Of a stretch of 64,000 nt of DNA, positions 24,153 through 33,349 are shown piece after piece; within the stretch, counting starts at the first letter, position 1, and every line of letters starts with the position of its first letter. The notes below the pieces were generated by a model. It ran no database searches and had not been told where the DNA came from. It saw only the letters and a program-made list of their open reading frames with translations. This DNA is from Hydrotalea flava. Its GTDB lineage: Bacteria; Bacteroidota; Bacteroidia; Chitinophagales; Chitinophagaceae. The stretch is taken from contig NZ_LUHG01000045.1 in NCBI RefSeq assembly GCF_001623405.1, positions 62,001 to 126,000 on the forward strand. Direction: 5' to 3'. The position numbers and the translations under genes are program-made.

Positions 24153-24635
24153 TTAAACGAAAAGCATATGTGTTCCTAATCCGGAACCTTGCTTGTAAAA
24201 ATCGCCAACGGTAATAACGCCATCTAAATCATCGTACATGTCTTCTTTTTTATAATGAAACATTTCCATGGCTAATTTACAGGCCCAAAGCTTAACGCTG
24301 GAGGCTTTTAAAATATTCAAAAACTCTAATACATCGGGCATGTCAATTTTTTCCATTTCCTTTTTCATCATACTGGTGGCAAGTGCCTCCACGCCGGGTA
24401 ATCCGCCTAATAGGGTAGGCATGTGCAGGGCCGGGTTTCCAACAGTGGCAGTATGTAAATGTTCTAATTTGCCTTTGTGAATGGCTTCTAACCCAAAAAA
24501 GGTAAAAAACATTTCTGCTTCTATGCCTTCCATACGGGCACCATTGGCCAAAACAAATGCAGCATACACATTTTCAAGGGTGGCTTTAGAAAGAATAATC
24601 ATCATCTTTCTTACTTCACCATTCAACTCGTTCAT
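24153..24635 (-). CDS. DsrE/DsrF/DrsH-like sulfur-relay protein
   Basis: 160 residues. The Rossmann-like DsrE fold is recognisable from KMMIILSKATLENVYAAFVLANGARMEGIEAEMFFTFFGLEA and the C-terminal block VKLWACKLAMEMF, with a single conserved Cys119, followed by DLDGVITVGDFY. This is the larger peroxiredoxin-like DsrE/DrsH group (PF13686-type). The Cys probably carries a persulfide. It is the last gene of a minus-strand operon SQR, TusE/DsrC-like, DsrE-like. Partner exchange with the TusE-like protein is inferred from the Dsr/Tus relay. Confidence 0.83.
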   Translation of the reverse strand: MNELNGEVRKMMIILSKATLENVYAAFVLANGARMEGIEAEMFFTFFGLEAIHKGKLEHLHTATVGNPALHMPTLLGGLPGVEALATSMMKKEMEKIDMPDVLEFLNILKASSVKLWACKLAMEMFHYKKEDMYDDLDGVITVGDFYKQGSGLGTHMLFV

Positions 24636-24655: not shown

Positions 24656-24964
24656 TTAAATACAACTGGCAGGTTTGGGTATACCGGCAATTTTAGTGGC
24701 TGCCTTTAAAGGGGCATTGGGAAATAACTGATAAAACTCCTTGATGTCAACCACGCCGCTTTTTCCAATTTTACGAATACTTAACGGACTTTCGTTTTTG
24801 TATTCATTCTGTAAATATTGAATAACTTCCCAATGCCTGGGGGTTAAAGTAATATTCAAATCTTTTGCAATGGCTTCTGCAACGGCGGGAGTCCATTGTG
24901 CAAAATTGGTTAAGTAACCTTCTTCGTTTACATCAACTGTTGTGTTGGCTAATTGTGTTTCCAT
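24656..24964 (-). CDS. TusE/DsrC family sulfur carrier, single-cysteine type
   Basis: 102 residues, normal length for DsrC/TusE. Core blocks NEEGYLTNFAQWTPAVAEAIAKD and LTPRHWEVIQYLQNEY, then the flexible C-terminal arm KIAGIPKPASCI with the penultimate Cys101 (CysA). The second DsrC cysteine, 11 residues earlier, is Thr90, and no other Cys exists. It therefore cannot form the CysA-CysB trisulfide used with dissimilatory sulfite reductase and is a TusE-like carrier. No dsrAB is present. It lies between the SQR gene and a DsrE-like gene, so a role in moving sulfane sulfur from sulfide oxidation is likely. Confidence 0.9.
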   Translation of the reverse strand: METQLANTTVDVNEEGYLTNFAQWTPAVAEAIAKDLNITLTPRHWEVIQYLQNEYKNESPLSIRKIGKSGVVDIKEFYQLFPNAPLKAATKIAGIPKPASCI

Positions 24965-24990: not shown

Positions 24991-26226
24991 TTAATCAAAG
25001 TATTTGCCTGCTTCCTGCATAGTGGCAGAAACAAAAGGTATGTGGGTTCCTTTCAGCAGCATGTTCCAGTAAATCCATCTGAAAGCTAATTTGCCCATGT
25101 GGTTCATTCTGCTTTCTTTTAATAGTCTTAATGGTCCAACGCCGGGGAAGGGGAAGCTGCCTTCAACAGGTTCGTGGGTATAGTTAAAATCAATCAGCAA
25201 TGCCTTGCCGTTACCGGTTTCAATAAAGCAGTTGGCATGCCCGTCAAATTTTTCTTTTAAAGGTTCGTCTTTCATATAGCGAAGAATATTTTCGGTGAGT
25301 ATTTCTGCTTCAAAGTGGGCTACAGAACCTGCTTTGGATGCCGGTATGTTTGATGCATCGCCAATTACAAAAATGTTTTCATAATTTTTAGATTGCAGGG
25401 TGGCGCGGTTGGTGGGTACATAATTCAGGTCATCACCTAATCCAGAACGTGCCATTAATTCATCGCCTTTATTGGTGGGCACAGTCACCAGCAGGTCAAA
25501 GGGTACTTCCTTGCCGCTGTAATCAATTATTTTTTTGTTGGCATTGTCTACTTCCTGTATAGCAAAATCACTAACAATATCAATGTGTTTTTCCTGTAAC
25601 AGGTGTTCTAAGGCTTCGGTACTTTTGGGTTTGGTAAAGGCACCACTCAATGGCGTAACAAAAGTAATTTGTACTTTATCACGCATGTTTTTGTGTTTAA
25701 AATAAGAGTCTGCTAAAAAAGAAAATTCGAGTGGTGCAACGGGGCATTTAATAGGCATTTCGGTAATGTGTACTACTAAGCGGCCACCTTTCCAGTCTCT
25801 CAACTTATTGCGTAAAGCCAATGCACCTTCAAAAGTGTAAAAGTCAAATACAGACTGATGCCATTCAGTACCTTTCATGCCTTCGGTTTCTTCCGGTGCT
25901 ATTTTGGCACCGGTGGCAATAATTAAAATATCGTAGGCAATGGTATCTCCATCGGCTAATTGAATGGTATTGGAAGTGGGTACTACCTTTTCAATCCGTT
26001 TATTGATGAAGTGTACACCTTTGGGTATAAACTCGGTAATAGATTTAATAATATCTTCCGGAGCATAAATATCAAAAGGTAAAAATAAATAGCCGGGTTG
26101 GTAGTGGTGTTCTTTGCGTTCATCAATAATGGTAATATCCCATTCATCATGTTTTAATTCATGTTTTAGGTGGTTGGCCATCATGGTGCCTGCTGTGCCG
26201 GCGCCTAGTATTACAATTTTTTTCAT
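24991..26226 (-). CDS. Sulfide:quinone oxidoreductase-like FAD flavoprotein (first copy)
   Basis: 411 residues. N-terminal FAD motif VILGAGTAGTMMANHL, with HHYQPGYLFLPF next as in SQRs, then IIATGAKIAPEE and the second nucleotide site. The catalytic-type Cys lies in MPIKCPVAPLEF; a second Cys is in GHANCFIETG. FVIGDASNIPASKAG binds FAD near the C-terminus. SQRs oxidise sulfide to polysulfide and feed electrons to menaquinone at the membrane. The CPVAP form differs from the KCGGAP form of the second copy at 29 kb, so the two belong to different SQR types. It heads the SQR-TusE-DsrE operon, divergent from cydAB. Confidence 0.85.
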   Translation of the reverse strand: MKKIVILGAGTAGTMMANHLKHELKHDEWDITIIDERKEHHYQPGYLFLPFDIYAPEDIIKSITEFIPKGVHFINKRIEKVVPTSNTIQLADGDTIAYDILIIATGAKIAPEETEGMKGTEWHQSVFDFYTFEGALALRNKLRDWKGGRLVVHITEMPIKCPVAPLEFSFLADSYFKHKNMRDKVQITFVTPLSGAFTKPKSTEALEHLLQEKHIDIVSDFAIQEVDNANKKIIDYSGKEVPFDLLVTVPTNKGDELMARSGLGDDLNYVPTNRATLQSKNYENIFVIGDASNIPASKAGSVAHFEAEILTENILRYMKDEPLKEKFDGHANCFIETGNGKALLIDFNYTHEPVEGSFPFPGVGPLRLLKESRMNHMGKLAFRWIYWNMLLKGTHIPFVSATMQEAGKYFD

Positions 26227-26315
26227 AACAATTATTTAATGTGTTTCTGTTTCAATTGCTACTGTAAAATTAGAATGGGCTTTAAACATAATTCATGACG
26301 GTTGTTAGCTGCTTT

Positions 26316-26331
26316 TATGATTAAAATCATA
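26316..26331. promoter_or_regulatory. Crp/Fnr-type palindrome in the SQR/cydA divergent region
   Basis: TATGA-TTAAAA-TCATA, a perfect inverted repeat of 5-base arms. It lies 90 bases upstream of the SQR start, which is preceded on its strand by TATGTTTA (26290-26283), a near -7 box. It probably controls the minus-strand operon. Confidence 0.5.
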
Positions 26332-26359
26332 TAGATTTATGCAATAAAAAAAGGGGTAT

Positions 26360-26375
26360 TGTAATAAATATCACA
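26360..26375 (+). promoter_or_regulatory. Crp/Fnr-type site upstream of cydA
   Basis: TGTAA-TAAATA-TCACA, one mismatch from TGTGA-N6-TCACA. Its centre is 28.5 bases before the -7 box TACCTTTG, placing it close to -41.5 from the expected start, the class II activator position. Confidence 0.6.
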
Positions 26376-26403
26376 TTGTAGTTTATAATTGCATGTACCT
26401 TTG
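26376..26403 (+). promoter_or_regulatory. Putative cydAB promoter
   Basis: TTG (26376-26378), 17-base spacer, TACCTTTG (26396-26403), matching the Bacteroidota -33/-7 layout. A 60-base leader precedes the cydA ATG. The palindrome 26360-26375 abuts the -33 element. Confidence 0.6.
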
Positions 26404-26464
26404 AATCCAATTGTAAACCCTTCATTTTTCTGGGCATAGCATTAAAATAGATAAAAAATATTTT

Positions 26465-27847
26465 ATGGATTTAGAATTGCTTTCCCGTATACAGTTTGCT
26501 TTTACTATTGCTTTTCATTATATCTATCCGCCCCTCAGTATTGGGTTGGGTGTGGTGATTGTAGGTTTTGAAGGCTTGTTTTTAAAAACAAAAAATCCAT
26601 TGTATGCAAAACTGTCTCGTTTCTGGATTAGAATATTTGCATTAATCTTTGGGATCGGTGTTGCAACGGGTATTGTAATGGAATTTGAATTTGGAACCAA
26701 TTGGGCTACCTATTCGCGTTTTGTTGGCGATATTTTTGGTAGTGCCTTGGCTGCAGAAGGTATTTTTGCCTTTGCATTAGAATCGGGCTTTTTGGGTGTG
26801 CTGTTGTTTGGTTGGAATAAGGTATCACCTAAAGTACACTTTTTTTCTGCTGTAATGGTAACACTGGGTTCCATGTTTTCTGCTGTTTGGATAGTGGTGG
26901 CTAATTCCTGGCAACAAACTCCGGCGGGCTTTCATTTGGTAGGGCATGGTTTAATGGTGCGTGCCGAGGTTACCAACTTCTGGGCCATGGTGTTCAATCC
27001 TTCATCGGTTGATCGGTTATTGCATGTTTGGGTGGGGTCATTTTTAGCGGGTTCGTTTTTGGTATTGAGTGTGCATGCTTATTATATTTACAAAAACAAA
27101 TATGTAGAAATATCTAAAAAGGCTTTTAAAGTTGCATTGGCTATTGCAACGGTATCTGCTTTACTGCAATTGTTTATTGGCGACAGGTCGGCCAAAGGGG
27201 TGGCCGTTAATCAACCGGCTAAATTAGCTGCTTTTGAAGGGCATTATGATAGTTTAGCTGCTGCCGATATGTATCTTTTAGGCTATGTTAATACAAAAAA
27301 TGAATCAGTAACGGGTATTAAAATTCCAGGTGGATTATCTTTTTTAATAGATGGAAATTTTTCAACACCGGTAAAAGGGCTTCGTTATTTTAAACCGGAA
27401 GACAGGCCAACGGCAGTAAACTTTGTGTTTCAAACCTACCATTTTATGGTGGCAATTGGTTTATTACTCATTGCATTAACTTTATATGCAACTTTTTTAT
27501 TGTGGCGAAAAAAATTGTTTCACAAAAAATTGTTGATGCTGGTATTTGCTTTCTCCGTTTTTCTTCCTGAAATAGCCAATCAGTTAGGCTGGTATTCTGC
27601 CGAAGTTGGCCGCCAGCCTTGGGTGGTGTATGGTTTGTTACGCACCAGTGATGCTTTATCTAAATCGGTAAAAGAAAATGAAGTATGGTTTTCTTTAATC
27701 CTTTTTACCATTTTATATCTGCTATTGTTTGCATTGTTTATTTATTTGTTGAATAAAAAAATTCAACACGGATTAGAAGAAAATGACAATGATGTAAGTG
27801 ATCTTATGCCTTCTGCCAGTAAACGTAATAACCCTTTAATGAATTAA
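26465..27847 (+). CDS. cydA: Cytochrome bd-type quinol oxidase subunit I
   Basis: 460 residues, nine membrane helices expected. The high-spin haem ligand H18 is in [12 protein letters not shown] second haem His is in [14 protein letters not shown] and the Met ligand region is TYHFMVAIG. Quinol/haem signature [17 protein letters not shown] is present. The Q-loop is short and the block [21 protein letters not shown] resembles the CIO (cyanide-insensitive) subclass. bd oxidases keep working in sulfide, which poisons haem-copper oxidases, so placement between two SQR genes makes sense. It is followed one base later by cydB. Confidence 0.93.
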
Positions 27848-27848
27848 T

Positions 27849-28883
27849 ATGGAAACTTTTTTAGGAATAGAATTGTCAACCTGGTGGTTTGCCATTGTAG
27901 GCGCTGTATTTACCGGATATTCCATTTTAGATGGGTTCGATCTGGGTGCAGGGGCTATACATTTGTTATTTAAAAAAGAAGAAAGCAGGCGGATTGCCTT
28001 AAATGCCATTGGCCCCGTTTGGGGTGGTAATGAGGTTTGGTTGGTAATTGGCGGTGGTGCTTTGTTTGCGGGTTTTCCGGATGTGTATGCCACCATATTC
28101 TCTTCTTTTTATATACCCTTTATGTTGTTTCTGGTATTGTTAATTTTAAGGGCTATCTCCATTGAATTTAGAAGTAAAGAACCTATGCTGTGGTGGCGTA
28201 AATTATGGGATATTCAGTATTCTGTTTCCAGCAGTCTGATTGGTTTTTTATTGGGAGTGGTGTTGGGTAATTTAATTATTGGGTTGCCCATCAATGAACA
28301 TTTTGAATATACCGGTACTTTTCTGCAATTATTAAATCCGTATGCCTTGTTAACGGGTGCTACTACTTTGTCGTTATTTGCCATGCATGGTTCTATTTAT
28401 TTAGTCATGAAAACTGAAAAGCGTTTGTATACTAAACTTTCATTAATGGTGCAAGATACCAGCAGGGTATTTGTAGTGTTTTATATGTTGTTAACCATTG
28501 TTACTTTGGTGTATTACCCGCACATGGCCAATACCATTAAAAGGTATCCCTTTTTAATTGCTGTGCCGGTAGTAACCGTATTTAATACCATTAATACAAG
28601 GCGTTTGTTAGAAAGTGGTAAATATTTAGTGGGTTTCTTTTCTTCTGCACTAACCGTTGCATTGCTGCTTATTACTTTTGCCATGAATTTGTATCCAAAT
28701 ATTGTACGTTCTACTATCAATCCATTGTATTCATTAACAGTGCATAATGCGGCATCTTCTCCCCGATCACTCACCATTATGCTTATTATTGCAGCCATTG
28801 GAGTGCCAATCATTGCTCTTTATACCGGTTATGTATTCTGGACTTTTAAGGGCAAAGTGAAATTAGAGGAGAATAGTTATTAA
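27849..28883 (+). CDS. cydB: Cytochrome bd-type quinol oxidase subunit II
   Basis: 344 residues with eight or more membrane helices. CydB blocks: WFAIVGAVFTGYSILDGFDLGAGAIHLLF, ALNAIGPVWGGNEVWLVIGGGALFAGFP and YIPFMLFLVLLILRAISIEFR. It pairs with CydA to form the O2-reducing quinol oxidase. The start is one base after the cydA stop, so coupled translation is likely. No cydX-like small subunit is seen directly after it: the next 124 bases hold a regulatory site. Confidence 0.93.
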   Translation: METFLGIELSTWWFAIVGAVFTGYSILDGFDLGAGAIHLLFKKEESRRIALNAIGPVWGGNEVWLVIGGGALFAGFPDVYATIFSSFYIPFMLFLVLLILRAISIEFRSKEPMLWWRKLWDIQYSVSSSLIGFLLGVVLGNLIIGLPINEHFEYTGTFLQLLNPYALLTGATTLSLFAMHGSIYLVMKTEKRLYTKLSLMVQDTSRVFVVFYMLLTIVTLVYYPHMANTIKRYPFLIAVPVVTVFNTINTRRLLESGKYLVGFFSSALTVALLLITFAMNLYPNIVRSTINPLYSLTVHNAASSPRSLTIMLIIAAIGVPIIALYTGYVFWTFKGKVKLEENSY

Positions 28884-28944
28884 ATAGCAACTGATTTTTC
28901 TACTTAATCTATAGGGTTAATATACTAATAAAATATATTTTTTA

Positions 28945-28960
28945 TGTGATTTTAGTCACA
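28945..28960 (+). promoter_or_regulatory. Crp/Fnr-type site upstream of the second SQR gene
   Basis: TGTGA-TTTTAG-TCACA, an exact TGTGA-N6-TCACA palindrome, about 29 bases upstream of a -7-like TATTTTC (28982-28988) and 55 bases from the centre to the SQR ATG. Same geometry as at cydA. Confidence 0.65.
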
Positions 28961-29007
28961 TACTTGTATCTTGTAGTATATTATTTTCATTTTAAAATAA
29001 GATTGCT

Positions 29008-30204
29008 ATGCCAGTACAACATCAAATTGTAATTGTTGGTGGCGGAAATGCAGGTATTTCCGTAGCCGGTAAATTATTGCTTAAGAATAAGCAATTAGAT
29101 ATTGCCATTATAGATGCTGCCGATAAACATTATTATCAGCCTGCCTGGACATTAGTAGGCGGAGGTGCATTTAATGTGGCAGATACCGTTCGCTCTGAAG
29201 CATCGGTAATGCCTAAATCGGTACATTGGATTCAAAAAAAAGTAACCGGCTTTTTACCCAACGTCAATAAAGTATCGTTAGATGATGGTACTGAAGTGGG
29301 TTATGAATATTTGGTGGTGGCACCCGGTATTCAAATTAACTGGAGTGCTATTAAAGGATTGCCTGAAACATTGGGTAAAAATGGGGTTTGCTCTAATTAC
29401 AGCTTTCAATCGGTAAATTACACATGGGAGTGTATCAAAAATTTCAAAGGCGGTAACGCCCTATTTACCAATCCCAATACTCCGGTAAAATGTGGTGGCG
29501 CGCCCATGAAAATTATGTTTCTGGCAACAGATTATTTCAGAAAACATGATTTGCTCAATAAAACGCAGGTAGAATATTGGAGCGGCGGTACCCGTTTATT
29601 TGGGGTAGATAAATATGAAAATACTTTAAAGAAAGTGGTAGCACGAGGCAATATAAAAACACAGTTTTTTGTAAGGTTAGATGAAATAGATGGCCCCAAC
29701 AAAAAAGCGAAATTTATGGGCTTTGGCGAAAATAATAAGGATCAGGAATATTGGGTTGATTTTGATATGATACATATAACCCCACCTCAAAGTGCACCCG
29801 ATTTTGTGTGCAATAGCCCTTTGGCCAATGCAGCCGGGTGGGTTGATGTTGATAAAAATACCTTACAACATATACGTTATGCCAATATTTTTTCTCTGGG
29901 CGATGCTTCCAGTTTACCTACCTCACGTACAGGGGCTGCAATTAGAAAACAAGCGCCGGTTTTAGTGCAAAATTTATTGTCGCTCATGCAAGGACAGTCT
30001 TTAAATGCCCGCTATACAGGTTATACCTCTTGTCCGTTGATTACAGGATATGGCAAACTGGTATTGGCTGAATTTGATTACAACAATCAGCCTATGGAAA
30101 CATTCCCATTTGATCAGAGTAAGGAGCGTTGGAGTATGTGGATATTGAAAACGAAAATCTTGCCTTGGTTATATTGGAACAAAATATTACCGGGAACAGC
30201 ATAA
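29008..30204 (+). CDS. sqr: Sulfide:quinone oxidoreductase, type II-like (second copy)
   Basis: 398 residues. FAD motif IVIVGGGNAGISVAGKLL, then HYYQPAWTLVGGG, a hallmark of the SQR type II/mitochondrial SQRDL group. Catalytic Cys in TPVKCGGAPMKIMFL and partner Cys in GYTSCPLITGYGKLVLAEFDY; also FSLGDASSLPTSRTGAAIR. It transfers sulfide electrons to menaquinone, giving a persulfide on an acceptor such as glutathione, CoA or sulfite in this class. It is the first gene after cydAB and has its own Crp-like site and terminator. Clearly distinct from the flavoprotein at 25 kb. Confidence 0.92.
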   Translation: MPVQHQIVIVGGGNAGISVAGKLLLKNKQLDIAIIDAADKHYYQPAWTLVGGGAFNVADTVRSEASVMPKSVHWIQKKVTGFLPNVNKVSLDDGTEVGYEYLVVAPGIQINWSAIKGLPETLGKNGVCSNYSFQSVNYTWECIKNFKGGNALFTNPNTPVKCGGAPMKIMFLATDYFRKHDLLNKTQVEYWSGGTRLFGVDKYENTLKKVVARGNIKTQFFVRLDEIDGPNKKAKFMGFGENNKDQEYWVDFDMIHITPPQSAPDFVCNSPLANAAGWVDVDKNTLQHIRYANIFSLGDASSLPTSRTGAAIRKQAPVLVQNLLSLMQGQSLNARYTGYTSCPLITGYGKLVLAEFDYNNQPMETFPFDQSKERWSMWILKTKILPWLYWNKILPGTA

Positions 30205-30225
30205 TAAATTTTGTAACCCCCAAGT

Positions 30226-30262
30226 AAGAGCCTGCGAACTTTTTTCTATGCAGGCTCTTTAT
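30226..30262 (+). terminator. Terminator after the second SQR gene
   Basis: 10-bp perfect stem AAGAGCCTGC / GCAGGCTCTT with a T-rich loop and TATT tail, 22 bases after the stop. Confidence 0.75.
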
Positions 30263-30355
30263 TAATTGGCTAATTCTAAAACATGAAAAACTTAAAATTT
30301 GAATGTTTTATTACTTTAATATAAATTTTGTTAATGTTTAACCTGCTTTTATATC

Positions 30356-30371
30356 TGTGATTCATGTCACC
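30356..30371 (+). promoter_or_regulatory. Crp/Fnr-type site upstream of the TauE/SafE gene
   Basis: TGTGA-TTCATG-TCACC, one mismatch from the perfect palindrome, 49 bases before the ATG. A clear -7 box was not found. Confidence 0.55.
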
Positions 30372-30418
30372 GTACAATGCACTAATAAAGGCCATTTTTA
30401 CAAAATAAATTTCAATCC

Positions 30419-31222
30419 ATGCAGCTTTTTTTTGGTTATTTAGCATCGGCTTTAATTGGTATATCACTGGGTTTAATAGGTGGTGGCGGCTCTATATTAA
30501 CGGTGCCGGTTATGGTATATTTATTTAGTGTAAATCCGCTTTTGGCTACATCCTATTCTTTATTTGTGGTAGGCTCTACCAGTTTGGTGGGCGCCTATAA
30601 CAGTTACAGAAGAGGTTTGGTGAGTATTAAAACAGGTTTATTGTTTGGAATATCTTCTATTGCAACCGTTTTTTTAACAAGAAAATTTTTTATCCCTTCT
30701 ATCCCTAAAAATATTGCTACTATTGGTTCTTTTGTCATTACGGAAAACATTATGACAATGGTGTTGTTTGCTATTTTGATGGTGGTAGCTTCTTTATCGA
30801 TGATGCGGAATGGTAATAAAAAAGAAACAACAGATGTGGTGCCTGATAAAAAAATCAATATTCCTAAACTATTGGTATATGGTATCGGCATCGGATTTAT
30901 TACAGGATTATTGGGTGCAGGCGGCGGATTTTTATTGATCCCCACTTTAGTACTATTAGTAGGATTATCCATGAAGGAAGCAGTGGGCACTTCTTTGTTC
31001 ATCATTGCACTCAATTCCCTGATTGGCTTTACAGGCGATTTAGGTCATTTTAAAATGGACTGGAAATTATTGGGAATTGTTACCCTGATTGCAATAGGTG
31101 GTATTTTTGTTGGCGGATGGCTGGGTAAAAAAATTCATGGTGATAAATTAAAAAAAGGTTTTGGCTGGTTTGTATTGATGATGGGTATTTATATTATTGC
31201 CAGGGAATTGTGGTTACATTAG
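30419..31222 (+). CDS. TauE/SafE family sulfite/organosulfonate exporter
   Basis: 267 residues, eight predicted membrane helices in two repeats. The repeat signatures GISLGLIGGGGSILTVPVMVYLF (near residue 15) and FITGLLGAGGGFLLIPTLVLLVGLS (near 160) are typical of the family. In this context the likely substrate is sulfite or thiosulfate made by the persulfide dioxygenase next door. It is in its own unit with a Crp-like site, followed after 78 bases by the dioxygenase gene. Confidence 0.88.
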   Translation: MQLFFGYLASALIGISLGLIGGGGSILTVPVMVYLFSVNPLLATSYSLFVVGSTSLVGAYNSYRRGLVSIKTGLLFGISSIATVFLTRKFFIPSIPKNIATIGSFVITENIMTMVLFAILMVVASLSMMRNGNKKETTDVVPDKKINIPKLLVYGIGIGFITGLLGAGGGFLLIPTLVLLVGLSMKEAVGTSLFIIALNSLIGFTGDLGHFKMDWKLLGIVTLIAIGGIFVGGWLGKKIHGDKLKKGFGWFVLMMGIYIIARELWLH

Positions 31223-31236
31223 TAAAGTATGGTTTG

Positions 31237-31252
31237 TGTGATTTGAGTCACT
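31237..31252 (+). promoter_or_regulatory. Crp/Fnr-type site upstream of the persulfide dioxygenase gene
   Basis: TGTGA-TTTGAG-TCACT, one mismatch from the palindrome. Its centre is about 30 bases before TAATTTTA (31274-31281), a -7-like box, repeating the geometry seen at cydA and the second SQR gene. Confidence 0.6.
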
Positions 31253-31300
31253 GTTCATCCTGAATCGTTTCATTAATTTTAATTTTTTAAAATTTTGCTT

Positions 31301-32719
31301 ATGGTAGTTGAACAAATTTATACCGGTTGCTTAGCGCAGGGTGCATATTATATTGAAAGTGATGGCGAAGCGGTGATTATTGATCCGCTTCGTGAGGTAG
31401 AACCCTATATTCAAAAAGCAGAAAGAAATGGTGCTACCATAAAATATGTGTTAGAAACGCATTTTCATGCCGATTTTGTATCCGGGCATCTTGATTTATC
31501 TAAAAAAACAGGTGCTCCCATTGTGTATGGCCCAAATGCTAAACCGGCATTTGATTTTTATGCAGCAAAAGATGGTGAAGAATTAAAAGTGGGTAAAGTA
31601 ACCATTCAGGTATTGCATACACCCGGACATACCATGGAAAGTACCTGTTATTTGTTAAAAGATGAAAACGGCAAGCCTACTGCGTTATTTAGTGGCGATA
31701 CTTTATTTATTGGCGATGTGGGCCGTCCTGATCTGGCACAAAAAGTAGTAGCCGATTTAACACAGGATAAATTAGCGGCTCATTTGTTTCATTCGCTTCG
31801 TAATAAAATAATGACGTTGCCCGATGATGTAATTGTTTACCCTGCACATGGAGCCGGCAGCGCCTGTGGTAAAAACATGAGCAAAGAAACCACCGATACA
31901 CTCGGTCATCAAAAACAAATCAATTATGCACTGCGTGCAGATATGACGGAGGCTGAATTTATTAAAGAAGTAACAAACGGATTGGTTCCACCACCTGCCT
32001 ATTTTCCATTAAATGTAATGTTGAATATTCAAGGCTATGAAAGTATTGATAAAGTGTTGGAACGGGGTCAACATGCTTTTTCACCCAATGCTTTTGAAGC
32101 AGCAGCCAATGAAACCGGTGCCATTATTTTAGACACCAGAGATCCGCAGGTATTTGTACAGGGCTTTATTCCCAATTCCATTAATATTGGTATTGATGGC
32201 AATTTTGCACCCTGGGTGGGTGCTATGATTCCCGATATTAAACAGGAAATTTTATTGGTAACAGATGAAGGTAGAGAGGAAGAAGTAATTACCCGATTGG
32301 CCCGGGTGGGTTATGATTATACCATTGGTTACCTGAAAGGTGGTTTTCAGGCTTGGAAAGAAGCAGGTAAAGAAGTAGATACCATTCTATCTATAACACC
32401 GGAAGAACTGGCTCAAAAAATGGAACAAGAAGAAGTTTCTATTTTAGATGTACGCAAAAACAGTGAATATTTAAGCGAACATGTAGTAGATGCCGAAAAT
32501 GCACCGCTCGATTTTATAAATGAAAGCATGAGCCAAATTGATAAAAATAAAACCTACTATGTGCATTGTGCCGGTGGTTACCGCTCCATGATTTTTAATT
32601 CTATTCTGCGGGCAAGGGGTTTCGATAATTTAATTGATGTAAAAGGCGGCTTTACTGCTATTAAAGAAAGCGGTAAGTTTCCTGTTACCGATTATGTATG
32701 CCCAAGTACTTTATTATAA
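31301..32719 (+). CDS. Persulfide dioxygenase-rhodanese fusion (CstB/Blh-like)
   Basis: 472 residues from ATG 31301. Residues 1-230 are an ETHE1-like metallo-beta-lactamase fold: H54-F-H-A-D58 (ETHFHADFVSGH), LHTPGHTMES and FSGDTLFIGDVGRPDL supply the mononuclear iron ligands. Residues about 258-350 are a rhodanese domain without an active Cys (LLVTDEGREE). Residues about 365-470 are a second rhodanese with C423 in HCAGGYRS. This is the CstB layout: it oxidises persulfide to sulfite and combines it with sulfane sulfur to thiosulfate. A TTG at 31295 would add two residues. It begins the run of rhodanese and Cys-rich genes. Confidence 0.92.
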   Translation: MVVEQIYTGCLAQGAYYIESDGEAVIIDPLREVEPYIQKAERNGATIKYVLETHFHADFVSGHLDLSKKTGAPIVYGPNAKPAFDFYAAKDGEELKVGKVTIQVLHTPGHTMESTCYLLKDENGKPTALFSGDTLFIGDVGRPDLAQKVVADLTQDKLAAHLFHSLRNKIMTLPDDVIVYPAHGAGSACGKNMSKETTDTLGHQKQINYALRADMTEAEFIKEVTNGLVPPPAYFPLNVMLNIQGYESIDKVLERGQHAFSPNAFEAAANETGAIILDTRDPQVFVQGFIPNSINIGIDGNFAPWVGAMIPDIKQEILLVTDEGREEEVITRLARVGYDYTIGYLKGGFQAWKEAGKEVDTILSITPEELAQKMEQEEVSILDVRKNSEYLSEHVVDAENAPLDFINESMSQIDKNKTYYVHCAGGYRSMIFNSILRARGFDNLIDVKGGFTAIKESGKFPVTDYVCPSTLL

Positions 32720-32748
32720 AACCAAATGAATACGGAAAAATAAAACAT

Positions 32749-33030
32749 ATGTCAACATTAAACGAAATCGTAAACAATTCAGCAACAAGTATTGTAGATG
32801 TACGCACGGTAATGGAGTTTCAAAGTGGCCATGTACCCGGGGCTATCAACATTCCATTAGATGAAGTTCAGAACAGATTGGAAGAGTTTAAAAAGCTACC
32901 CAAACCAATTGTGGTATATTGCAGAAGTGGTGCCCGCAGTGGTATGGCCATGTCAATTTTAAAACAATCCGGAATCAACGAAGTATACAACGGTGGTGGA
33001 TTGGCTGATATGCAATTTATGTTAAACTAA
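32749..33030 (+). CDS. Single-domain rhodanese
   Basis: 93 residues from ATG 32749. One rhodanese domain (SIVDVRTVMEFQSGHVPGAINIPL) with active loop C58-R-S-G-A-R-S. It transfers sulfane sulfur between thiols, probably as a cytoplasmic carrier. An upstream in-frame ATG at 32698 lies inside the preceding gene, and the rhodanese alignment starts after it, so I prefer 32749. 29 bases after the dioxygenase fusion; 10 bases before the next rhodanese. Confidence 0.9.
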   Translation: MSTLNEIVNNSATSIVDVRTVMEFQSGHVPGAINIPLDEVQNRLEEFKKLPKPIVVYCRSGARSGMAMSILKQSGINEVYNGGGLADMQFMLN

Positions 33031-33040
33031 AAAATCAGTT

Positions 33041-33349
33041 ATGCTTTCATTTCTTAAAAAATTATTTTCAGGCAAAAAAGTGGATTATCAGGAATTACAA
33101 AACCGTGGTGCGATTATTATTGATGTTAGAACACCTGCCGAATTTAAAACAGGCCATATTCGCGGGGCTATTAATATTCCGGTTGATCAAATCAAATTAA
33201 AAACAGCCGAACTGAAGAAAAAAAATAAGCCGGTAATTACCTGCTGCCGTAGTGGCGCCAGAAGCGGCATGGCTAAATCTGTGTTATCTGCTGCCGGTAT
33301 TGAAGTGTACAATGGCGGTGCCTGGTTTATGTTGGAGAAAAAATTATAA
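33041..33349 (+). CDS. Single-domain rhodanese with CC active loop
   Basis: 102 residues. Short N-terminal amphipathic stretch (MLSFLKKLFSGKK), then a rhodanese domain with IIIDVRTPAEFKTGHIRGAINIPVDQ and the active loop TC68-C69-R-S-G-A-R-S. The double cysteine at the active site differs from the single Cys of the neighbour; Cys69 aligns with the catalytic residue. The basic N-terminal segment could associate with the membrane. It is the fourth rhodanese domain in 2 kb. Confidence 0.88.
   Translation: MLSFLKKLFSGKKVDYQELQNRGAIIIDVRTPAEFKTGHIRGAINIPVDQIKLKTAELKKKNKPVITCCRSGARSGMAKSVLSAAGIEVYNGGAWFMLEKKL

Follow-up and report, generated by a model that had tools for sequence, protein, structure and literature searches.

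A predicted Crp/Fnr-type class II regulon for sulfide defence in Hydrotalea flava and other Bacteroidota, with a candidate regulator

The sulfide locus and its upstream sites

The subject of this study is a sulfide-defence locus in a stretch of 64,000 nucleotides (nt) of Hydrotalea flava (Chitinophagaceae, Bacteroidota; contig NZ_LUHG01000045.1, positions 62,001 to 126,000), which is called the window in the following. An earlier note on this DNA described five palindromes of Crp/Fnr type before the transcription units of the locus and suggested one regulator for all of them. We compared these sites with those of related genomes, and four of the five appear to be operators of a Crp/Fnr-family activator, for which a protein encoded elsewhere in the same genome (C3:11749-12393, the C3 protein) is the candidate. 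The locus contains the following genes; gene calls in all scans were the longest open reading frame (ORF), and distances to gene starts are approximate.

24153-24635, minus strand: DsrE2-like sulfur carrier (PF13686 above cut-off, NF047629 below cut-off)
24656-24964, minus strand: DsrC/TusE-like protein (TIGR03342 above cut-off)
24991-26226, minus strand: SQR1, a type III sulfide:quinone reductase (SQR; NF049943, 650.7 bits, cut-off 525)
26465-27847, plus strand: cydA-like gene, cytochrome bd subunit I (NF011677, 262.9 bits, below cut-off)
27849-28883, plus strand: cydB, cytochrome bd subunit II (TIGR00203 above cut-off)
29008-30204, plus strand: SQR2, an SQR-like flavoprotein (NF049943, 235.2 bits, below cut-off; Pyr_redox_2)
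30419-31222, plus strand: TauE/SafE family exporter (PF01925 above cut-off)
31301-32719, plus strand: metallo-beta-lactamase-fold/rhodanese protein, putatively persulfide-dioxygenase-like and called dioxygenase-rhodanese here (above the cut-off for both Lactamase_B and Rhodanese; start codon ATG at 31301 taken from the sequence)
32740-33030, plus strand: rhodanese 1 (PF00581)
33041-33349, plus strand: rhodanese 2 (PF00581)

The palindromes and the -7-like boxes behind them are given below. Spacing is always the distance from the centre of the palindrome to the start of the -7-like box, i.e. the Bacteroidota element TAnnTTTG, which was scored on six bases.

26316-26331, minus strand: ATGAT-N4-ATCAT palindrome on the SQR1-DsrC-DsrE2 side, TATGATTAAAATCATA; kept in three genomes of the genus
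26265-26272, minus strand: -7-like box of the SQR1 unit, TAATTTTA on the minus strand; 5/6 of TAnnTTTG, conserved in the genus
26360-26375, plus strand: GTGA-type operator of cydAB, TGTAATAAATATCACA; one mismatch to TGTGA-N6-TCACA
26396-26403, plus strand: -7 box of cydAB, TACCTTTG; 6/6, its start 28.5 nt from the palindrome centre
28945-28960, plus strand: GTGA-type operator of SQR2, TGTGATTTTAGTCACA; no mismatch, conserved in the genus, recurs before SQR2 relatives
28982-28989, plus strand: weak -7-like box of SQR2, TATTTTCA; 4/6, at 29.5 nt, conserved in the genus
30356-30371, plus strand: GTGA-type operator of TauE, TGTGATTCATGTCACC; one mismatch, conserved in the genus, also before TauE of relatives
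30393-30400, plus strand: weak -7-like box of TauE, CATTTTTA; 4/6, at 29.5 nt
31237-31252, plus strand: GTGA-type operator of the dioxygenase-rhodanese unit, TGTGATTTGAGTCACT; one mismatch, conserved in the genus, also before a relative of this gene elsewhere
31274-31281, plus strand: -7 box of the dioxygenase-rhodanese unit, TAATTTTA; 5/6, at 29.5 nt, conserved in the genus

All five palindromes of the earlier note, at 26316, 26360, 28945, 30356 and 31237, are indeed present. They fall into two types, GTRAY-N4-RTCAC (26360, 28945, 30356 and 31237) and ATGAT-N4-ATCAT (26316). The spacing like that of class II activators, which had been claimed for cydA, SQR2 and the dioxygenase, was measured as 28.5, 29.5 and 29.5 nt, respectively, and the TauE site, which had not been counted, shows 29.5 nt as well. 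The idea of a single Crp/Fnr regulator is supported for the cydA, SQR2, TauE and dioxygenase sites; it is not supported for 26316, which differs in palindrome type and has a spacing of 51.5 nt.

Conservation and promoter geometry in relatives

All five sites have counterparts before the same genes in two other genomes of the genus (G061 and G143), where the flanks have diverged; in G061, the cydA counterpart is found in upstream DNA that cannot be aligned with the window. A cydA-type site with the box at 28.5 nt occurs in both genomes. Beyond the genus, genes for SQR2, TauE, dioxygenase-rhodanese and rhodanese are again preceded by the operator (consensus TGTRAY-N4-RTYACA). The search among 147 genomes of the family found relatives of SQR2 in 23 (E<=1e-60, this genome included) and relatives of the C3 regulator in 110 (E<=1e-25, which includes distant paralogues down to approximately 32% identity). 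In 40 stretches of relatives, 42 palindromes with at most one mismatch were detected, of which six lie inside ORFs and 30 are situated not more than 80 nt from a gene start, the genes being those for SQR, cyd, TauE, dioxygenase, rhodanese or the regulator.

From these 42 sites, 44 oriented pairs of palindrome and box were picked by hand, with some sites entered both ways. The six sites in ORFs and those at L124 2660, L125 13125, L126 17526 and L160 13302 were left out, while the five window sites and four entries from C77:151.8-152.0 kb were added. A box matching in at least 5/6 positions starts at 29.5 nt in 27 pairs and at 28.5 nt in three; each of the other offsets from 8.5 to 71.5 nt is represented by zero to three pairs. 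An independent set consisted of 80 loci, among them Lacibacter, Flavobacterium and Pedobacter, which were chosen by the regulator alone via peptides of its helix-turn-helix (HTH) and represent the best 80 of 567. Here, GTGAY-N4-RTCAC gave 120 oriented sites (60 palindromes) and the box was found at 29.5 nt in 48 of the 120, compared with a mean of 0.96 and a maximum of 4 at other offsets. The reversed control palindrome gave four oriented sites, none of them with a box at 29.5 nt. Among 68 sites with one changed half-site, GTGAY-N4-RTTAC, the box is placed at 29.5 nt in 29 when read one way and in 35 when read the other way.

Furthermore, 112 unique promoters from 70 of the 80 loci were selected for the presence of palindrome and box, and columns outside this selection were inspected. 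Counted from the palindrome centre, T is found at -7.5 in 76%, Y at +37.5 in 89% and A at +41.5 in 71% of them. The conserved A at +41.5 coincides with the predicted transcription start and would place the centre of the operator near -41.5, i.e. in the class II position of Crp-type activators. The comparison with relatives makes the four GTGA-type sites convincing, since it shows both their recurrence and their fixed box spacing. A predicted class II activator of Crp/Fnr type over the cydA, SQR2, TauE and dioxygenase genes is strongly supported. In addition, a clean class II promoter geometry with a defined operator is now available for the Bacteroidota -7 box.

Further observations concern cydAB. 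The interval between SQR2 and SQR1 of G143 (L122:6700-7520) holds approximately 0.8 kb of cydAB-like sequence compared with approximately 2.4 kb, with no run of N; it looks as if cydAB were shortened in that draft or the assembly had collapsed there. In the Flavobacterium stretches L259, L261, L265, L267, L271, L281, L291, L297 and L318, cydAB, the regulator and TauE share one locus, which fits a role of cytochrome bd as part of sulfide defence.

The candidate regulator

According to the earlier note, the window encodes no Crp/Fnr regulator. This is borne out by the domain search, in which the eight PF00027 and eight PF13545 matches of the genome are all located off contig C77, which holds the window. 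The gene of the C3 protein is likewise outside the window, on another contig, where it adjoins a rhodanese gene. Its product scores 38.4 bits with PF00027 (cut-off 27.5) and is above the cut-off with PF13545 and PF00325. A monomer model of the relative L239, which was used for the fold class only, has a mean predicted local distance difference test (pLDDT) value of 85.5 and a predicted template modelling (pTM) score of 0.62 and matches Crp/Fnr structures.

The recognition helix of the C3 protein, SREVISR, is of the form R-E-x3-R, which is also the form of the helix of Escherichia coli CRP. The resemblance to CRP extends to the fold, to an operator of the type TGTGA-N6-TCACA and to a site centre near -41.5. 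The differences are found in the cyclic AMP (cAMP) cassette, where Arg-Ser of CRP contrasts with a C-x5-C pair, in the Bacteroidota -7 box and in a regulon consisting of sulfur genes.

Regulator relatives are often neighbours of sulfide genes. A TauE, dioxygenase, SQR or YeeE gene lies no farther than 5 kb away in 12 of the 27 stretches of the family and in 62 of the 80 loci; in a further 11 and 12, respectively, only a rhodanese gene does. The exact composite of palindrome and box has 48 matches in 34 of the 147 family genomes compared with three control matches, and it is present in 24 of the 57 genomes with a close relative of the C3 protein (defined by us as approximately 205 bits) but only in 10 of the 90 others (P 2e-5). 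Taken together, we are fairly confident that the four GTGA-type operators serve one Crp/Fnr-family activator in class II position, most probably the C3 protein; the nature of its signal is a separate matter.

Some observations weigh against this assignment. The boxes of SQR2 and TauE match TAnnTTTG in 4/6 positions only. None of the listed sulfide genes is found within 5 kb of the regulator in four of the 27 family stretches and six of the 80 loci, and in this genome the C3 gene is not linked to the sulfide cluster. Ten genomes hold the exact composite without a close C3 relative, and 33 of the 57 genomes with such a relative hold none. Finally, the C3 protein is one of two paralogues with an R-E-x3-R helix in this genome; the other, C47:80454-81158, could also be the regulator, although the C3 type is the better candidate.

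If the C3 protein is the regulator, its dimer would bind at a site centred near -41.5 and overlap the place of the -33 element. In this position the bound protein would recruit RNA polymerase to promoters that have only the -7 box, as class II activators do. Its targets at the locus would be cytochrome bd, SQR2, TauE and the dioxygenase-rhodanese unit. Elsewhere in the genome it would act on the rhodanese beside its own gene, a thioredoxin/methyltransferase unit, a resistance-nodulation-division (RND) efflux operon and a YgaP-like membrane protein.

The signal and the cysteine pair

The C3 protein contains two cysteines in all, C75 and C81, which form a C-x5-C pair in the stretch that by inspection matches the cAMP cassette of CRP. 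The phosphate-binding cassette of CRP contains Arg-Ser. The corresponding stretch of the C3 protein reads PGEACAISLVCASKMEAS and has, by inspection, no Arg-Ser, so that it departs from the CRP cassette. All 28 C3 relatives have C75, and 26 of the 28 have C81. The C-x5-C pair is also present in all 80 regulator loci, which were found by HTH peptides and thus by a search independent of the cysteines.

In the former cAMP pocket, the pair C75-x5-C81 would read sulfane sulfur, i.e. persulfide or polysulfide. We see about an even chance that this is the signal, judging from the gene content of the regulon and from the analogy to SqrR/BigR, CstR and FisR. These regulators read persulfides with their cysteines and thereby control genes for SQR, persulfide dioxygenase, TauE or sulfurtransferases, as stated in the available parts of PMC9774590, PMC12170894 and PMC7315123. 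They belong to the ArsR, CsoR and sigma-54 activator families, whereas the C3 protein is a member of Crp/Fnr by Pfam and by the fold search. OxyR, LasR and OhrR are also named, in the available part of a review, as responding to sulfane sulfur or related species.

Two findings speak against sulfane sulfur as signal. Position 81 is Ser in L153 and Gly in the distant L140, and C-x5-C is also present in the structure PDB 3dv8 of Eubacterium rectale, where it aligns with C75 and C81. The pair alone is no proof of sulfur sensing, since 3dv8 has it too, and given this structure the group of proteins with the cysteine pair may reach beyond Bacteroidota. Iron-sulfur sensing in the manner of FNR was also considered for the C3 protein. 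FNR belongs to the same superfamily but differs by TTGAT half-sites instead of GTGA and by the four cysteines that hold its [4Fe-4S] cluster; this type of sensing was rejected, because the C3 protein has C75 and C81 only.

The C3 regulator could instead sense heme or redox state, with the sulfide genes being a part of a redox regulon. This is a serious rival because PgRsp of Porphyromonas gingivalis, a Crp/Fnr protein of the same phylum, and the C3 family both relate to 3DV8: PgRsp was modelled on this structure (PMC6955866, available part), and 3dv8 is the best PDB sequence match of the C3 family. PgRsp is described in the same source as a Crp/Fnr family of its own with a cysteine at 76, which binds heme, senses redox state and binds to the hmu and bcp promoters. 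It was compared with the C3 protein by description, and no link to sulfide was found in the available part of PMC6955866. What speaks against heme or redox is the abundance of sulfur genes among operators and gene linkages, and we regard such a signal as rather unlikely. HcpR is another Crp/Fnr regulator known in Bacteroidota, but it is described as a nitrosative-stress regulator (PMC12040651, available part), and its structure 9day scores 24.6 bits against the C3-family profile compared with 100.6 bits for 3dv8.

The literature that was searched, in the parts available, contained no Crp/Fnr protein as regulator of sulfide genes, which cannot prove absence. The nearest case is the Crp-like protein of Acinetobacter baumannii (PMC7315123). 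It is 50% identical to E. coli Crp, and on the side opposite the ligand pocket it has a cysteine that becomes persulfidated when sulfide is present; in the part of the paper available, a regulatory effect is suggested and the effect of persulfidation is reported as not known. Unlike the situation proposed here, the sulfide genes of A. baumannii are controlled by FisR and BigR (same source). The dedicated persulfide regulators covered in the available parts of reviews are from other protein families, with examples from Pseudomonadota and Bacillota. What the present analysis adds is a predicted class II regulon for the sulfide defence of Bacteroidota under a Crp/Fnr protein, for which a candidate can be named; it is supported for four of the five sites and extends beyond the locus.

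The complete picture, in which a cAMP pocket has turned into a dithiol sensor of sulfane sulfur and the protein acts as class II activator of sulfide defence together with RND efflux, a thioredoxin/thiol-methyltransferase-like partner and DUF983- and YeeE-type proteins, is put forward tentatively, with slightly less than even confidence. If it is true, Crp/Fnr would be added to ArsR, CsoR and the sigma-54 activators as a family with dedicated persulfide regulators.

Repression, a second paralogue and chance

The palindromes could also be operators of a repressor that blocks the promoters until the signal releases it. SqrR, BigR and CstR are repressors (PMC9774590, PMC12170894, available parts), and the sites overlap the place of the -33 element. 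However, a repressor would be expected to tolerate varied positions, whereas a single fixed box offset and a centre near -41.5 correspond to the geometry of class II activation. The same applies to the lack of a TTG at a fixed -33 position in the stretch from palindrome to box, where no offset from 10 to 28 before the box shows TTG in more than six of the 112 promoters. TTG is found at offset 29 in 16 of the 112, where it is part of the palindrome core and was not counted as a -33 element. We consider repression improbable and infer that the C3 protein binds to the four sites and activates from there.

Equally poor prospects are given to the paralogue C47:80454-81158 (helix ARENVVR) as a protein that occupies the GTGA-type sites by itself or shares them with the C3 protein. 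Apart from its R-E-x3-R helix, this possibility is favoured by the exact composite being found in 11 of 30 genomes with the C47 type compared with 23 of 117 without it (P 0.045), and by four genomes that hold the composite and the C47 type in the absence of a close C3 relative. On the other hand, 17 genomes with the composite have the C3 type and not C47. G061 is one of them; it has no match to C47 at E<=1e-50 and keeps the sites, which disfavours C47 as the sole regulator. Inspection of C47:74-88 kb revealed thioredoxin and ArsR-rhodanese genes, whereas no SQR, TauE or dioxygenase gene was seen.

As a separate observation in this region, C47:85057-85731 combines, by eye, an ArsR-type DNA-binding part with a rhodanese-like part, and its product is possibly another sulfur-linked regulator.

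By simple counts, the loose patterns are not over-represented. The bare palindrome with at most one mismatch occurs 44 times in the genome compared with 52 times for the reversed control, and with up to two mismatches the window has 16 matches where 26.3 are expected. The composite of palindrome and box with up to three mismatches is likewise at background in this genome (59+54 compared with 79+68 in the control). The pattern TRTRA-N6-TYAY gave 23 matches in the window with an expectation of 18.1. Counts of the bare palindrome were therefore rejected as evidence, and so was the composite with up to three mismatches in this genome alone; only exact or near-exact matches are informative. The arrangement of the sites is different from background. 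Four of the 44 genome palindromes fall inside the 4.9 kb of the sulfide locus, where the Poisson expectation is 0.064 (P approximately 6e-7), and these four are intergenic, compared with 28 of the 44 sites inside ORFs of at least 100 codons. The earlier note had named a background rate in the whole genome as the result that would speak against its proposal; this is what the bare palindrome gives (44 compared with 52), but not the clustering, the conservation or the exact composite (48 compared with 3). That the five palindromes arose by chance in AT-rich intergenic DNA, as the background counts of the loose palindrome and the loose composite would allow, is next to impossible in view of the clustering, the conservation in the genus, the fixed spacing in independently chosen loci and the exact composite, and for the four GTGA-type sites the comparative results already speak against it.

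The regulon beyond the locus

The first downstream ORF of the 48 exact composites was tallied by hand, and 33 could be assigned. Efflux is the commonest target in the family, with 11 of the 48 composites before outer-membrane efflux genes. It is followed by thioredoxin with eight, rhodanese or dioxygenase-rhodanese with four, and DUF983-like and YgaP-like membrane proteins with three each, while SQR2, a YeeE-like protein, OsmC and a Dps-like protein were found once each. The 15 others include composites without a convincing ORF. ORFs were named by Pfam for representatives and by BLAST to the window genes, and the names DUF983 and YeeE are our own presumed assignments. Rows of L226 were omitted as repeats of L200, and L221 and L233 are among the 33 with an ORF that starts more than 100 nt from the box.

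In this genome, a divergent promoter outside the window (C77:151846-151953) carries two sites with a box at 29.5 nt each way. The efflux side reads OEP-HlyD-AcrB; on the other side, a thioredoxin gene is followed by a TPMT/TehB-like methyltransferase gene. Near-matches with two mismatches are located at C3:12398, between the C3 regulator and the rhodanese next to it, and at C6:25294, in front of the gene of a YgaP-like protein. The predicted regulon connects sulfur stress with efflux, DUF983 and methyltransferase genes that are so far unstudied. Generally, if Chitinophagaceae, Flavobacterium and Pedobacter share a conserved Crp/Fnr regulon for SQR, dioxygenase, TauE, rhodanese and cytochrome bd, this would account for the way in which a large environmental phylum switches on its sulfide defence.

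The fifth site

The palindrome at 26316 is of a type that is nearer to FNR than the GTGA type. Its centre is situated 51.5 nt before the SQR1 box, which resembles a class I arrangement and is the same throughout the genus. ATGAY-type palindromes before SQR1 are also present in the more distant L251 and L260, with GACTTTTA (4/6) at the same 51.5 nt. None was found before SQR1 in L136 and L280, and L253 ends too near to tell. The site at 26316 probably serves SQR1 as the operator for an FNR-like paralogue, such as the one on C97, whose helix VETVIR we take to be similar to that of FNR.

ATGAY-type sites may belong to a second class II regulon, which another Crp/Fnr paralogue would control in parallel. 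In the 80 regulator loci, 14 oriented sites of this type were detected, three of them with a box at 29.5 nt and a mean of 0.10 at other offsets. The search of this genome for composites was, taken as a whole, at background. Exact ATGAY-N4-RTCAT sites with a box at class II spacing are found at C66:29218, C75:26116, C83:20365 and C97:28469, and some ATGAY-N4-RTCAT sites precede genes of FNR or nitric oxide character (one by Pfam, the others by eye). Near matches were detected at C13:15887 and at C97:27207, the latter before a gene of hemerythrin/ScdA type according to Pfam.

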